NCBI GenBank assembly: GCA_947476325.1
Contig: CANJPZ010000002.1
Coordinates: 62,001-126,000 of the forward strand
Length of the DNA: 64,000 nucleotides
Source: Caulobacteraceae bacterium
GTDB lineage: Bacteria > Pseudomonadota > Alphaproteobacteria > Caulobacterales > Caulobacteraceae
Reading direction: 5' to 3'
Under the pieces are notes generated by a model. That model was not told where the DNA came from. It searched no databases and saw only the letters and a list, made by a program, of their open reading frames with translations. Shown here piece after piece: positions 2,868 to 46,943 of this stretch. The translations under genes and the position numbers were made by a program. The stretch's first letter is position 1, and the number at the start of each line of letters is the position of its first letter.

Positions 2868-3484
2868 AGCTGCTGCTGATCGACGACCATCCGATCGTTC
2901 GTGCGGGCTGCCTGAGGGTGCTGCAGCAGCGCGAGGGCTTGGAGGTGCGAGAGGCGGACACCGCTGCAAAGGGGCTGGCCCTGGCCGACGAATTCCGCCC
3001 TGACATTGTCATTCTTGACCTCAACCTGCCTGATCGGCGGGGACTTGATGTTCTGGCCGATCTGCGGGCCCGCCATCCGGCCAGCGCCGTGATTGTGCTG
3101 TCAATGTATGAGGAGATCGCCTTTGTAACCTCGGCCATGGAGGCGGGCGCGCGAGGCTATGTGACCAAGAACGATGATCCTGAATGTCTGTTCGAGGCCA
3201 TCGATACGGTGATGGCGGGCAGGATCTATCTGTCGCGGATCGTCGAACAGCGTCTGGCCCGGGCCCGTATCGCCGAAGAGACGGACCCCATGGCCGGGAT
3301 GACAGTGCGCGAACGGCGTCTGCTGGGCCTGCTGGCCCAGGGCAAGGCCCTGGCCGAGGCCGCCGCCGAACTGGATGTCAGCTATCGCACTACGGCCGAG
3401 GAGGCCGCCCGTCTGCGCGTGCGCCTGCGGCTGCGCACCAACGCGGCGCTGATCAAGTTCGCGGTCGAGCACACGGTCAGTTAG
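2864..3484 (+). CDS. NarL/LuxR-family response regulator with divergent HTH
   Basis: 206-aa response regulator, partner of the kinase it overlaps. The receiver domain (residues 1-120) has the acidic pair in 'LLLIDDHP', the phospho-acceptor Asp52 in 'VILDLNLPD', the conserved Ser in 'VIVLSMYEE' and the Lys in 'GYVTKNDD'. The C-terminal part (about 145-206) begins like a LuxR HTH ('MTVRERRLLGLLAQGKA'). The usual recognition-helix signature (T-V-K-x-H) is replaced by 'SYRTTAEEAARLRVRL', so DNA contacts may be altered. The downstream lipoprotein starts 7 bp after the stop, making a three-gene operon. The receiver assignment is firm; the DNA-binding role is inferred from family and context. Confidence 0.85.
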   Translation: MKLLLIDDHPIVRAGCLRVLQQREGLEVREADTAAKGLALADEFRPDIVILDLNLPDRRGLDVLADLRARHPASAVIVLSMYEEIAFVTSAMEAGARGYVTKNDDPECLFEAIDTVMAGRIYLSRIVEQRLARARIAEETDPMAGMTVRERRLLGLLAQGKALAEAAAELDVSYRTTAEEAARLRVRLRLRTNAALIKFAVEHTVS

Positions 3485-3491
3485 CGGTCAG

Positions 3492-4520
3492 ATGGCGCAC
3501 GGGACTCAAAGGATTGGTCTGGTTCTGGCGCTTCTGCTGACCGCGTGCCGGCAGGAGCCCATCACCTTTGACGGCAAGGATTTTGAGGCTCACGGGCTCA
3601 AGGGCGCCAGGCCGGCGGCGGGCTGGGAAAAGGTCTTCGCCGTCTATGCCAGCGCCGAGCCGGGCGCGCCGCCTCTGACCGGGACCTATGTCCGCCACGG
3701 CGGCACGCTGGTGTTCAAGCCGGCCCTCGTTCCGGCCTCGGGCGCCCCGGTGCGCGCTGTATTGCATCAGGCCGACGGGTCGATCACCAGCGCGGTTTTC
3801 ACGACTCCGGCTTCGGCCGCGGCCCGCTCTGCAGCCACGGTCAGCGCAATCTTTCCGACCGCCACGGAATGGCCGGCCAACGCGCACAAATTTGACATCG
3901 AGTTCTCGGCCCCCATGACGCGCGGGGTGGCGCTGGCCCACATCCGCCTGCTCGACGACACAGGCGAGCCGGTGAATGGGCCATTTGTCGAAACCGGACC
4001 GGAGGGTTGGAGCCCGGACATGAGGCGGCTCACAGTTTTGTTCAATCCGGCCCGGGAAGGTCCGGCGCTGGTCTCGGGCAAGCGCTACACCTTGTTGATC
4101 GACCAAAGCTGGCCCGCCGCCAATGGTCAGCCGCTGGCGAGTGAATTTCGTAAGGACATCACCGCGGTAGCCGCAGTGCGCCTGCCCGCCGATCCGGCCG
4201 CCTGGAAGATCGGACCGCCGGCAGGGCGCCGTTCTGACCTGGTTGTGGAGTTTCCCCGGCCCATGAACCAGGCCCTGGCGCTGCGGGCGATCACCGTCGA
4301 AGGCGTGGCAGGCAAGGCGCGGCTCGAAAATCACGAGACCCGTTGGATATTCACGCCGGACAAGTCGTGGACCCGGGGCAAGCATGTGCTGCGCATCGAC
4401 CATGCGCTGGAAGATCTGGCCGGAAATCGTCTGCACCAGCTGTTCGATGCGGACGGATCCGGCGGCGTCCAGCCACAGCCGCCAGCGACCTTTGACCGGA
4501 TCAGTTTTACGGTCGACTGA
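3492..4520 (+). CDS. Lipoprotein with two Ig-like (Big_5/SbsA type) repeats
   Basis: 342-aa protein with a lipoprotein signal (hydrophobic run ending LLLTAC, lipidated Cys19). Two related segments of about 100 aa (around 112-225 and 240-340) each carry the pattern 'hydrophobic-F-x-x-PM': 'DIEFSAPMTRG' and 'VVEFPRPMNQA'. This pattern is typical of bacterial Ig-like domains of the SbsA/Big_5 type, where a beta sandwich mediates surface or protein-protein contacts. It follows the response regulator by 7 bp and is probably co-transcribed with the two-component system. Its 3' end overlaps the convergent downstream gene by 14 bp. It could be an envelope accessory factor for the sensor or receptor; the function is not known. 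Confidence 0.6.
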   Translation: MAHGTQRIGLVLALLLTACRQEPITFDGKDFEAHGLKGARPAAGWEKVFAVYASAEPGAPPLTGTYVRHGGTLVFKPALVPASGAPVRAVLHQADGSITSAVFTTPASAAARSAATVSAIFPTATEWPANAHKFDIEFSAPMTRGVALAHIRLLDDTGEPVNGPFVETGPEGWSPDMRRLTVLFNPAREGPALVSGKRYTLLIDQSWPAANGQPLASEFRKDITAVAAVRLPADPAAWKIGPPAGRRSDLVVEFPRPMNQALALRAITVEGVAGKARLENHETRWIFTPDKSWTRGKHVLRIDHALEDLAGNRLHQLFDADGSGGVQPQPPATFDRISFTVD

Positions 4521-19643: not shown

Positions 19644-19862
19644 ATGACCCCGACCGATTATCTGGCCATGCTCAAACAGATGCGGTGGCGGGATATCCAC
19701 CTGCTGTCGAGTTCGCGATCGGGCTCAACGGTTCAACAGCGTCTGTTGACCACTCAGTCCAAGATCGAGGCCATCGAAGCGGCCCTGGCCGACGGCGCGC
19801 CGGAAGTGCGCTGGACGACGGATCCGGACGGTTATCCCCTGCAACTGCCGGTCGAGGACTAG
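19644..19862 (+). CDS. Hypothetical small protein (72 aa)
   Basis: 72 aa from ATG 19644, with a good ribosome site (AGGGAAGGA) 8-16 nt upstream. Residues are soluble and mostly helical in the first half ('TPTDYLAMLKQMRWRDIHLL', 'STVQQRLLTTQSKIEAIEAALA') with a short beta-like end ('VRWTTDPDGYPLQLP'). I do not recognise a family. Its TAG stop lies inside the first 8 bp of the intergenic repeat that follows. It is 67 bp after the MFS gene and could share its transcript. Confidence 0.6.
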   Translation: MTPTDYLAMLKQMRWRDIHLLSSSRSGSTVQQRLLTTQSKIEAIEAALADGAPEVRWTTDPDGYPLQLPVED

Positions 19863-19963
19863 AGCGGGTTGCGATCTGATGGAATCAGATCGCCGCTCCA
19901 AGTTTTTGTTTTTACGCGCATTTATTCCGAAAACCGGTTCCCACTTTTCGGAATGCGCTCTAG
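19859..19963. repeat. 105-bp intergenic repeat with terminal inverted repeats and two hairpins
   Basis: The element is bounded by perfect 8-bp inverted ends, CTAGAGCG and CGCTCTAG. Inside are two perfect hairpins: GCGATCTGAT-gga-ATCAGATCGC (10 bp) and TTCCGAAAA-11 nt-TTTTCGGAA (9 bp). From memory it resembles an intergenic repeat common in alphaproteobacterial genomes ('AACCGGTTCCCACTTTTCGG'). The CTAG at each end provides the stop codon of the gene on that side: TAG 19860-19862 for the 72-aa gene and the reverse-strand TAG at 19962-19960 for gph. It probably also acts as a bidirectional terminator. Confidence 0.85.
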
Positions 19964-20646
19964 GCGGCAGTCCGGGCGGCGATCCAGGCGGGCAGGTCGT
20001 TGAAGTGCGCCAGGATTACGTCGGCGCCCAGCTCTTCGCGGGGCACATCCGAATAGCCGAACGCCATGACCGCCACCGGTATGCCGGCGTTGCGGGCGCC
20101 GTTCACATCGGTGCGGCTGTCGCCGACCATCAGGGCCATGTCGGGATCGCCATCGGCTTCCTCGACGGCGAACAGCAGGTGGCGGCCATCGGGCTTGGCG
20201 GCGGGCGCGACGTCGGCGCCGACGATGGCGGCGAAATGGCGGGTCATGTCGAGCGCGTCCAGCAGGGCTGTGGCAAGATCGGTGCGCTTGTTGGTGCAGA
20301 CCACCAGGGTTGCGCCAGCATCGGCCAACAATTCCAGAGTGTCGACACAGCCCTCGAACGGCACGCTCTCGTCGGCGATGCGGTTGCGATAGACGGCGAT
20401 GAATCGCTCGACCAGGGCCGGGGACTGGTCCGGCGCCAACGGCAGGCCGGTGGCCGCATAGCCCTGTTCGATCAATGCCTTGGCGCCGCGTCCAACCATG
20501 TCGCGGGCGGCTTCGAACGGTACCGGCGCAAGGCCCCGCTCGGCCAGGACCGCGTTGAGCGCGCCAACCAGATCAGGCGCGGTGTCGACAAGCGTGCCGT
20601 CGAGGTCGAAGGCGATGGTCCAGCCAGTGAGGTCAAGGTCGGTCAA
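19960..20646 (-). CDS. gph: Phosphoglycolate phosphatase (HAD superfamily)
   Basis: 228-aa cytosolic HAD phosphatase. Motif I is 'IAFDLDGTLVDTAPD', motif II 'LVVCTNKR', the lysine of motif III lies in 'AAKPDGRHL', and motif IV is 'MVGDSRTDVNGARNAG', all intact, with a helical C1 cap between motifs I and II. This is the Gph pattern, removing 2-phosphoglycolate. The TTG start at 20646 has AGGA 8 nt upstream. The stop codon is provided by the end of the intergenic repeat. Divergent from glmU, with 85 bp between starts. Confidence 0.9.
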   Translation of the reverse strand: MTDLDLTGWTIAFDLDGTLVDTAPDLVGALNAVLAERGLAPVPFEAARDMVGRGAKALIEQGYAATGLPLAPDQSPALVERFIAVYRNRIADESVPFEGCVDTLELLADAGATLVVCTNKRTDLATALLDALDMTRHFAAIVGADVAPAAKPDGRHLLFAVEEADGDPDMALMVGDSRTDVNGARNAGIPVAVMAFGYSDVPREELGADVILAHFNDLPAWIAARTAA

Positions 20647-26647: not shown

Positions 26648-28003
26648 ATGACTTCGGACGCTTCCATCGCCCAAAAGGCCCTCATCCGGCGTGATCTTTT
26701 CGCGCTGCTGAACCTTGCCTGGCCGGTGATCCTGTCGCGTCTGGGCATCATGGCCATGGGTGTGACTGACACGGTGGTCGTCGGCCGTTTTTCGCCTGTC
26801 GAGCTGGGCTATCAGACCCTTGGCTGGGCGCCGACCGGGGTGGTGATCATGACCGGCGCCGGCCTGCTGGCGGGTGTCCAGGTAATCACGGCGCGCCACA
26901 TTGGCGAAGGCCGGCCGGAAGCGACCGGCGGAGTTCTGCGGCGCGGACTTCTGTACGCCCTGTGGCTTGGTCTGGGCATTGGCCTGGCGCTTTATGCATT
27001 CGGTCCCTGGGTCATGGGGCACACGGGCCTTGCCCCCGATCTGGCGTTGGGCTCGGGCAAGGTGCTGCAGGTTCTGGCCCTGTCCCTGCCGTTCCATCTT
27101 ATCTCGACTTCAGCCACCTATTATCTGGAGGCGCTGTCGCGGCCCAAACCGGCGACGGTGGCCATGTGGTCCTGCAACCTCGTCAACCTGGCGATCAACC
27201 TGTTGCTGGTGCCGGGGATGCTCGGGATTAGCCCTATGGGCGCCGTGGGGGCCTGCTGGGCGACCGTGATTTCGCGCGCCGTGCTCAGCGCCTGGCTGCT
27301 GATCTACATCGTGCGGATGAAGGACGCCCGGGCCCTGGGCGTGTTCAAGGCTCCGGTCGATACCGTGCAGGATGCTATCGACCAGCGCCGTGTCGGTTAT
27401 GGCGGCGGCGCATCCTATTTCGTCGAGGCCGGCGCCTTTTCCAGCATGAACTTCATCGCCGGCTGGCTGGATGCGCTCGCTGTGGCCGGCTGGGGTATTG
27501 TGCTCAGTGTCACGGCCACGATCTTCATGGTTCCGCTGGGCCTGTCGGCGGCGACGGCGGTGCTGGTTGGCCAGGCCTATGGGGCCAGGGACAAGGCGGC
27601 TGTGGTCCGGGCCGGGATGACGGGCTTTGCCGTGTGTTTCGCGGTCCTGACCGTGATCGCTGTTGGCGTTCTGGCCGTCGCGCGCCACATCTCGGGGTTC
27701 TACAGCACCGATCCTGTGATGATCGAAATGGCAGGCGCGGCAATCAGCCTGGCCTGCCTCTATTTCGTGTTTGACGGACTGCAGGGCGTCGGCGCCCAGG
27801 CCTTGCGGGCGCGAGGCGACGTGCTGGCGCCAACCCTGACGCACATCTTCAGCTACGCCGCGGTCATGGTTCCGCTGGCCTGGGTGCTGGCGTTTCCGGC
27901 GGGCATGGGCCTGTCGGGCATTATCTGGGCGGTGATCATCGCCAGCATCTTTTCGGCCAGCCTGTTGCTGGGCCGGTTCTGGTGGCTGGCGAGACGGGCC
28001 TAG
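26648..28003 (+). CDS. MATE-family efflux transporter
   Basis: 451-aa multidrug/toxin extrusion protein with 12 predicted helices arranged as two six-helix bundles. The first bundle starts at 'LLNLAWPVILSRLGIMAMGVTDTVVVGRF' (shown in parts), a classic MatE opening. 'YLEALSRPKPA' and 'GLQGVGAQALRARGD'-like loops mark the ends of each half. ATG 26648 is chosen over an upstream in-frame start because similarity begins there. It uses Na+ or H+ gradients; drugs exported are not predictable. The TAG stop overlaps the convergent gene's stop in a shared CTAG. Confidence 0.87.
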   Translation: MTSDASIAQKALIRRDLFALLNLAWPVILSRLGIMAMGVTDTVVVGRFSPVELGYQTLGWAPTGVVIMTGAGLLAGVQVITARHIGEGRPEATGGVLRRGLLYALWLGLGIGLALYAFGPWVMGHTGLAPDLALGSGKVLQVLALSLPFHLISTSATYYLEALSRPKPATVAMWSCNLVNLAINLLLVPGMLGISPMGAVGACWATVISRAVLSAWLLIYIVRMKDARALGVFKAPVDTVQDAIDQRRVGYGGGASYFVEAGAFSSMNFIAGWLDALAVAGWGIVLSVTATIFMVPLGLSAATAVLVGQAYGARDKAAVVRAGMTGFAVCFAVLTVIAVGVLAVARHISGFYSTDPVMIEMAGAAISLACLYFVFDGLQGVGAQALRARGDVLAPTLTHIFSYAAVMVPLAWVLAFPAGMGLSGIIWAVIIASIFSASLLLGRFWWLARRA

Positions 28004-42071: not shown

Positions 42072-42961
42072 GCAAGCCGGACGACGACGCCTACATCGAA
42101 CGCTCGCGCGCGCCGTTGCTGGAGCATCTGGTCGAGCTGCGTGGGCGCCTGTTCGTCTGCGTTTTGGCCCTTGTCGTCGGCTTTTTCATTTCCTTCTTCT
42201 TCGTCAACCCGATCCTGGAATTCTTGCTGCGGCCTCTGAAGGTGGCGCAGGGGCTGATCACCCTTCAGCATCTGGCCGGGCACAACAATCCGTTCAGCCT
42301 GACCATGCTCAAGGGCGTTCTGGGTCTGACGCCCCTGCCGCCGCCGGCTGCGGGTCAGGAGTTGTCGCCGATCGCGACGGCGATCCTCGAGACCTTCATC
42401 GTCAAGGTGAAGATTGCCGCCTTTGGCGCCATTGTCATCACCTTCCCGATCCTCGGCTGGCAGCTTTACCGGTTCGTGGCGCCGGGCCTTTACCGCAAGG
42501 AGCGGCTGGCCTTTGCGCCGTTCCTGATCGCCTCGCCGGTGCTGTTCGTCATGGGCGCGGCCCTTGTCTATTATTTGATGCTGCCGTTCGTCCTGTGGTT
42601 CAGCCTGAACCAGCAGCAACTCGGCGCCATGACCATCACCCTGACGCCCAAGGTGTCGGAATACCTGGCCATCGCCATCAAGCTGATCCTGGCCTTCGGA
42701 CTGTGTTTTCAGTTGCCGGTCGTTCTGGCCCTCGCGGGTCTGGCCGGGCTGGTGACCGCCAAACAGTTGCGCGCCTTCTGGCGCTTTGCCGTGGTCATCG
42801 TGTTTGTGATCGCGGCGATCTTTACGCCGCCCGATCCGATCAGCCAGCTGTCGCTCGCCCTGCCGCTGGTGCTGCTCTACGAGGTCTCGATCTGGGTCGT
42901 GAAGCTGATGGAGCTGCGACGCAAGAAGGCCGACGATGAGGTGAACGCCATCGTCACCTAG
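42068..42961 (+). CDS. tatC: Twin-arginine translocase subunit TatC
   Basis: 297-aa membrane protein with six helices, the signal-peptide receptor of the Tat system. The cytoplasmic N-terminus 'PLLEHLVELRGRLFVCVLAL' with conserved L-E-H-L-x-E-L-R and 'PILGWQLYRFVAPGLYRKE' are diagnostic. The periplasmic loop after helix 1 is long (about 50 aa). It is convergent with the DEAD-box gene 12 bp away. Confidence 0.95.
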   Translation: MSKPDDDAYIERSRAPLLEHLVELRGRLFVCVLALVVGFFISFFFVNPILEFLLRPLKVAQGLITLQHLAGHNNPFSLTMLKGVLGLTPLPPPAAGQELSPIATAILETFIVKVKIAAFGAIVITFPILGWQLYRFVAPGLYRKERLAFAPFLIASPVLFVMGAALVYYLMLPFVLWFSLNQQQLGAMTITLTPKVSEYLAIAIKLILAFGLCFQLPVVLALAGLAGLVTAKQLRAFWRFAVVIVFVIAAIFTPPDPISQLSLALPLVLLYEVSIWVVKLMELRRKKADDEVNAIVT

Positions 42962-42973
42962 CGGCGTGAGCCT

Positions 42974-44551
<1,578 letters not shown>

Positions 44552-46292: not shown

Positions 46293-46943
46293 ATGCGCGA
46301 ACAGGACATGGCGATCCGCGAACACGACACGGGCTATGGCCTGGTGCCGATGGTGGTCGAGCAATCGAGCCGCGGCGAGCGCTCTTTCGATATCTTTTCG
46401 CGCCTGCTGCGCGAGCGGATCATCTTTCTGAACGGCCCCGTCGACGACAATGTCTCGGCTCTGGTGTGCGCCCAGCTTCTGTTTCTCGAGAGCGAGAACC
46501 CGAAGAAGGAAATCGCTATGTACATCAACTCGCCGGGTGGCGTGGTGACCAGTGGCCTGGCGATCTACGACACCATGCAATACATCAAGTCGCCGGTCTC
46601 GACCGTGTGCATGGGCATGGCCGCATCCATGGGCAGCCTGCTGCTCTGCGCCGGCGCGGCCGGTCACCGGATTGCCCTGCCCAACGCCCGCGTCATGGTC
46701 CACCAGCCGTCGGGCGGCTTCCGCGGTCAGGCCTCGGACATCGAGCGCCACGCCGAGGACATCATCAAGATCAAGCGCCGCCTGAACGAAATCTACGTCA
46801 AGCATTGCGGGCGGACGATGGAAGAGGTCGAGCGCACCCTGGACCGCGACCACTTCATGTCGGCCGAAGAGGCCAAGGCCTGGGGCATTGTCGACCACGT
46901 TTATGAAACGCGAGAAGCGGCTGAAGCGGCGGCGGCGACCTAG
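46293..46943 (+). CDS. clpP: ATP-dependent Clp protease proteolytic subunit
   Basis: 216-aa serine protease that forms a double heptamer and works with ClpX or ClpA. The catalytic Ser is in '[15 protein letters not shown]', the His in '[11 protein letters not shown]', and the Asp in the following '[11 protein letters not shown]' region. In Caulobacter relatives ClpXP degrades CtrA and other cell-cycle regulators and is essential. The stop overlaps the convergent cicA stop in a shared CTAG. Confidence 0.97.

Follow-up and report, generated by a model that had tools for sequence, protein, structure and literature searches.

The intergenic repeat at positions 19859–19963 of the window, that is, of the whole 64,000-nucleotide stretch of DNA analyzed here, very probably belongs to a family of non-autonomous mobile elements whose members insert at YTAR with duplication of TA, and do so silently in dual stop codons, most likely including a CTAG at the present locus. 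The observations that carry this reading are the copies of the repeat and their boundaries, the TA duplication, the filled and empty alleles in Rhizobium, the placement of the copies at stop codons, and, at the gene pair of another copy, a dual-stop CTAG that is empty in a sister species.

Structure of the Repeat and Its Flanking Genes

The repeat lies between two convergent genes, and the features of the region are the following:

19644–19862, plus strand: gene for a conserved small protein of 72 aa, with ATG at 19644, stop codon TAG at 19860–19862, and homologues in four other genomes
19860–19861: left TA, a copy of the duplicated target dinucleotide to judge from other copies
19862–19960: repeat proper (GAGCG...CGCTC, CIR/RIME/Bru-RS type, 99 bp), with eight copies in the genome and boundaries taken from 81 two-ended copies
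19862–19898: left arm hairpin, in which GAGCG (19862–19866) can pair with CGCTC (19894–19898), enclosing the stem 19871–19880/19884–19893
19882–19886, plus strand: GAATC, a GANTC (CcrM-type) site in the left arm loop
19916–19958: right arm hairpin, GCGCAT/ATGCGC plus the 10-bp stem 19924–19933/19945–19954
19961–19962: right TA, likewise a presumed copy of the duplicated target dinucleotide
19960–20646, minus strand: gene for a gph-like HAD phosphatase of 228 aa, whose stop codon TAG is the complement of 19962–19960

The initial annotation had described a 105-bp element with perfect 8-bp inverted ends and two perfect internal hairpins, which holds the TAG stop codons of both convergent genes within its CTAG ends, and this description was confirmed. 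The letters of the repeat read C-TA-[GAGCG...CGCTC, 99 bp]-TA-G, with the inverted ends CTAGAGCG (19859–19866) and CGCTCTAG (19956–19963), and both internal 10-bp stems listed above are perfect palindromes. The outermost letters are target DNA, and the element proper spans 19862–19960. Accordingly, the stop codon of the 72-aa gene consists of the target TA and the first G of the element, while that of gph, on the minus strand, consists of the target TA and the last C. The 8-bp ends alone say little, as the window contains 17 occurrences of GCGCTCTAG when at most one mismatch is allowed, as many as in shuffles; the core 22-mer of the repeat occurs once in the window and not at all in shuffles. 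The repeat strand folds much better than its shuffles (z of −4.05 and −6.75), with a predicted structure of two hairpin arms separated by a T-rich linker, and at least one compensated change was found in 16 of the 24 predicted pairs across 41 aligned copies.

Copies, Distribution, and Relation to Known Repeats

Further genomic copies, expected from the initial annotation, were found: the focal genome (2.65 Mb, 39 contigs) contains eight clear ones, six full-length and two without the left arm. Matches with an E value of 0.001 or better were present in 53 of the 148 genomes searched, the focal one included, and in 31 plasmid records belonging, by their names, to alphaproteobacterial genera, and a stricter right-arm pattern was found in 19 of 299 genomes of the order. 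One genome of the same order (G349) carried 35 matches to this pattern, far above its relatives, perhaps as a result of a burst of copying. The set of loci used below (n = 137) comprised all eight copies of the focal genome (G000), all 25 matches of the sister species (G001), 22 loci for 24 matches in G010, 26 for 43 in G051, 26 for 42 in G069, 6 for 9 in G041, and the best copy of each of 24 other genomes; the loci were picked by score, so that old copies are under-represented. Tandem copies joined at their CTAG ends also exist, as do half-elements that consist of only the right arm and frequently carry CTAG at their left end as well (L149, L155, L158, L162, L175, L008, and others). The left arm is itself bounded by CTAGAGCG/CGCTCTAG, and the family looks modular. 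The GANTC site was located at the left arm loop in 71 of 81 two-ended copies and was absent in 9 of the 41 aligned copies, including all three from the R. leguminosarum group; in the window as a whole, GANTC is depleted, with 114 occurrences observed and 287 expected.

The repeat is of the CIR/RIME/Bru-RS type and MITE-like, the likeness to CIR, Bru-RS, and RIME being one of description. CIR, the Caulobacter CcrM-associated intergenic repeats, were reportedly described by Chen and Shapiro in 2003. As described, CIR are elements of about 110 bp with TA termini and with two inverted-repeat arms that a linker joins, one of the arms bearing GANTC at its loop, and they are multicopy and intergenic in Caulobacter and other alphaproteobacteria (PMC2229807, PMC10969869). 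The review passages further list their terminal inverted repeats as "-" and their target-site duplication as "?", describe their mobility mechanism as unresolved, and state that they had not been found inside genes (PMC2229807). The focal repeat shares with CIR the two arms with a linker, the length of about 110 bp, the GANTC at the loop, and the occurrence in multiple copies in relatives of Caulobacter. Unlike CIR as reviewed, however, the focal family shows TA duplication, empty alleles, and placement at stop codons, and one copy in Bartonella lies in frame inside an annotated gene. Bru-RS1 and Bru-RS2 of Brucella and RIME of Rhizobium are, by their descriptions, likewise short palindromic repeats located between genes and about 105 bp long; the elements of the R. 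leguminosarum group align with the focal repeat across its length, and a match to the Brucella sRNA CI408 in Rfam was far below the cut-off (59.1 bits against 398, E = 6.8e-15). RUP, ERIC, and Correia elements, as described in Table 1 of the same review (PMC2229807), resemble the focal repeat in being non-autonomous, about 100–150 bp long, and ended by TA, but they have a single end-to-end stem instead of a two-arm fold. No statement of a stop-codon rule for these repeats was found in the titles and abstract openings searched, a range in which the original papers of 1993–2003 were mostly not included. The element belongs to an already known type of repeat; what is new is its stop-preserving insertion rule, for which we make no firm claim of its being unpublished.

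Target Site and TA Duplication

Among the 81 copies with both ends recognized, the ends of the element were nearly constant, whereas the outermost bases varied independently, being C or T on the left and G or A on the right, with others rare. The counts of these outer bases were C 75, T 17, and A 3 on the left and G 83, A 24, C 4, and T 1 on the right. The terminal letters point to GAGCG...CGCTC as the mobile unit, YTAR as the target, with CTAG as its commonest form, and TA as the duplication. A duplication of all four bases of CTAG was rejected, because the left and right tetramers differed in a manner that no 4-bp duplication can give in 21 of the 53 two-ended copies that have an intact TA at either junction, and because an empty TTAA site in the R. 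leguminosarum group has CTAA on its right when occupied. Filled and empty alleles were found in this group at three plasmid sites: CTAG, which is split by 102 bp when filled, CTAA beside the TenA gene, and TTAA at a 66-aa gene. At the TenA and 66-aa gene sites, the left flanks of the two alleles differ by a few bases.

The target-site duplication that was to be looked for is therefore TA within YTAR, as seen both in the copy ends and in the R. leguminosarum-group alleles, and the resemblance to a miniature inverted-repeat element suggested by the initial annotation is upheld by a multicopy repeat with this duplication and with filled and empty alleles at the three sites. The terminal inverted repeats GAGCG/CGCTC are short, reaching 8 bp when the target letters are included. 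Besides the three plasmid sites, copy L003 provides an empty and an occupied allele between sister species.

Stop Codons at the Insertion Site

Two convergent genes can end in a shared stretch of 4 bp, for which passages of PMC2174442 list CTAA, TTAA, CTAG, and TTAG; the same passages describe convergent overlaps as numerous in Caulobacter. The YTAR target set is identical to these four overlaps, and insertion into an existing stop codon or dual stop is consequently silent for the proteins. With the element starting in G and ending in C, the TA on both sides is completed to a TAG when read inwards, and insertion into a TAG or TAA stop codon keeps a stop, as TAG. The R. leguminosarum group agrees with this. 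The coding sequence of TenA measures 648 bp in both the filled and the empty state, with the same C-terminal residues, and that of the 66-aa gene measures 201 bp in both, again with identical C-terminal residues, while its stop codon is TAA when the site is empty and TAG when it is filled, as the insertion rule predicts.

The same arrangement recurs in other copies. Among 207 scored flanks from the 137 loci, 91 had a gene ending exactly at the terminal TAG, 47 a gene ending before it, and 2 a gene reading into the element, with 52 bordered by an outward gene and 15 by no gene. Considering only the 140 flanks with inward genes, the 91 exact ends and 2 readings into the element exclude the 1:2 ratio expected for random insertion at gene ends (p = 7e-41, for copies that are not fully independent). 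Gene ends at offset zero numbered 39 and 52, with a mean of 0.08 and 0.10 and a maximum of 2 at the other offsets from −60 to 60. Both stops were exact in 13 of 81 two-sided copies, and in five of the six full copies of the focal genome. Of 47 two-sided copies in the five GC-rich genomes, 36 were at a stop codon. The corresponding background in the flanks was 28 of 70 for non-internal CTAG sites (p = 1e-4) and 41 of 166 for YTAR sites (p = 2e-10). G051, a genome of lower GC, gave a weaker signal, with 7 of 24 two-sided copies compared with 11 of 95 background sites (p = 0.05). This background was drawn from the flanks of the elements and one window, and the enrichment could stem in part from selection against insertion into promoters. 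Genes were called with our own simple script based on an iterated codon-usage model, and sides without a terminal TAGAGC/GCTCTA within one mismatch (67 of 274) were left unscored. An earlier version of the caller, trained on the longest open reading frames, failed in the GC-rich G010 and gave the same picture (66 exact, 4 into the element, 38 before it, and 99 without an inward gene).

Of eight distinct annotated plasmid sites, five have a coding sequence that ends at the TAG of the element (TonB, a pilus gene, TenA, the 66-aa gene, and cydB), and the remaining three sites are off-stop, one inside an MFS coding sequence and two elsewhere. The first of these three is the copy at positions 1501–1604 of L248 (Bartonella sp. 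HY328 plasmid NZ_CP104884.1), which lies in frame in an annotated MFS transporter gene, contains no stop codon, and adds about 34 residues, reminiscent of the Rickettsia palindromic elements.

Unoccupied targets of the same kind were also identified. Within the window, the convergent pairs sharing CTAG at 28000–28003 and 46940–46943 are free of the element. The aminotransferase and carboxypeptidase genes on either side of copy L003 also form a pair in the sister species G001, there without an element and with stop codons that overlap by exactly CTAG; between the two species, the carboxypeptidases match as far as their final residue, and the ends of the aminotransferases are two codons apart. 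The gene pair at the half-length copy L008 has a 4-bp dual stop in 5 of 29 other loci and a 53-bp gap in G001. Separately, at the convergent pair at 42958–42977 of the window, 12 bases separate two CTAG at the gene ends (CTAGCGGCGTGAGCCTCTAG), perhaps as the remnant or footprint of a lost element.

Origin of the Focal Junction and Alternative Explanations

The surroundings of the two genes differ among relatives. In G001, the homologue of the 72-aa gene (71 aa) overlaps the stop codon of a convergent gene resembling alcohol dehydrogenase (ADH) by TTAG, and gph lies beyond this gene, its TGA stop codon overlapping the ADH start. The ADH-like gene, at 3181–4370 of the sister-species locus L108, is absent from 19644–20646 of the window; an ADH gene is also located near the 72-aa gene homologue in G002, and no ADH orthologue was found in the focal genome, where the best match had 34% identity. 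No empty allele of the junction between the 72-aa gene and gph was found. Most likely, the focal element entered a CTAG common to both genes after the loss of the ADH-like gene. The ADH-like gene would first have been lost, the stops of the 72-aa gene and gph would then have come to share CTAG in the inferred empty state, and the element would finally have split this dual stop. The main rival for the junction, between which and the preceding account the data do not choose, is a recombination between two copies situated on either side of the lost ADH, leaving one copy and a gph stop codon supplied by the element instead of an ancestral shared CTAG. The position of ADH in G001 and G002, its absence here, and the TGA of gph in G001 speak for such a deletion, which we nevertheless regard as improbable, given that it requires two copies plus a loss and that gph, with 228 aa compared with 227 (G001) and 225 (L042) in the nearest element-free relatives, shows no marked change of its C-terminus. 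That the insertion created new stop codons and thereby truncated or extended both proteins is very improbable. In one frame out of three, target TA plus G does yield an in-frame TAG, and truncation is possible in principle, but random insertion at gene ends predicts two read-throughs for each exact end, far from the ratio observed, and protein lengths are the same at filled and empty pairs, with gene ends similar within the genus. The proposal that the repeat redefined both C-termini thus finds no support at this locus, where the nearest element-free homologues end within one to three residues (71 aa in G001 and 70 aa in G002 for the 72-aa protein, with two remoter homologues of 80 and 77 aa), nor in the filled and empty comparisons elsewhere, which give the same end codon or one within two codons.

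Alternatively, the element might be maintained because it terminates transcription in both directions, or because it acts as a roadblock separating the convergent transcripts. The two strong hairpins with their compensated pairs and the enrichment at the stop codons of convergent genes would suit such a role, which we consider unlikely. A scan for intrinsic terminators, in which a T-run comes directly after a GC-rich stem, gave no hit on either strand within 19859–19963, and no T-run follows either hairpin, which runs against the bidirectional terminator with built-in stops put forward in the initial annotation; the stops, being target TA plus a base of the element, follow from the insertion rule and not from recruitment. 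Moreover, target choice together with selection against damage explains the placement, copies are also found beside outward genes (the 52 flanks mentioned above), and mobility can equally account for the maintenance of the palindromes.

Candidate Mobilizing Elements

According to the proposed mechanism, the element would insert at YTAR, most often CTAG, duplicating TA, and would be moved by a transposase acting in trans, with dual-stop YTAR sites accepting it without change to either protein. No transposases of the families PF13358, PF13340, and PF01609 were found in the focal genome or in G001, and no insertion sequence with GAGCG ends was found among 2 PF13358, 20 PF13340, and 9 PF01609 loci. 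One pairing among the PF01609 loci proved to be a CIR copy adjoining an insertion sequence with other ends. This insertion sequence, at about 1355–2281 of L335 (G051), has GGGGATTC ends, which do not match those of the repeat, and a PF01609/PF13340 transposase, and it is situated directly beside the copy, an arrangement similar to that of IS711 at Bru-RS in Brucella. IS870 of Agrobacterium needs CTAG to complete its own stop codon; both it and IS711 are autonomous, unlike the focal repeat. In passages of PMC2266754, IS711 appears to duplicate the TA of YTAR and prefers Bru-RS repeats. By analogy with this shared target, duplication, and preference, an insertion sequence of the IS711-like target type is a plausible mobilizer of the repeat.

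Implications for Compact Genomes

A more speculative possibility, which we offer tentatively, is that the family constitutes a safe-harbor system, in which the ends of the element are matched to YTAR so that insertion always rebuilds both stops, the roughly 100 bp of hairpin DNA may insulate the transcripts, and the placement has evolved instead of being only what selection left behind. The target duplication and mobility of CIR-type repeats, left open in the passages of the review (PMC2229807), are now supplied, and the harmless spread of such repeats between genes is explained. The coincidence of YTAR with the four dual-stop overlaps offers a simple rule by which small elements invade compact genomes, pulling overlapping genes apart, and it warns against taking a stop codon that lies within a repeat as evidence of a shortened protein.
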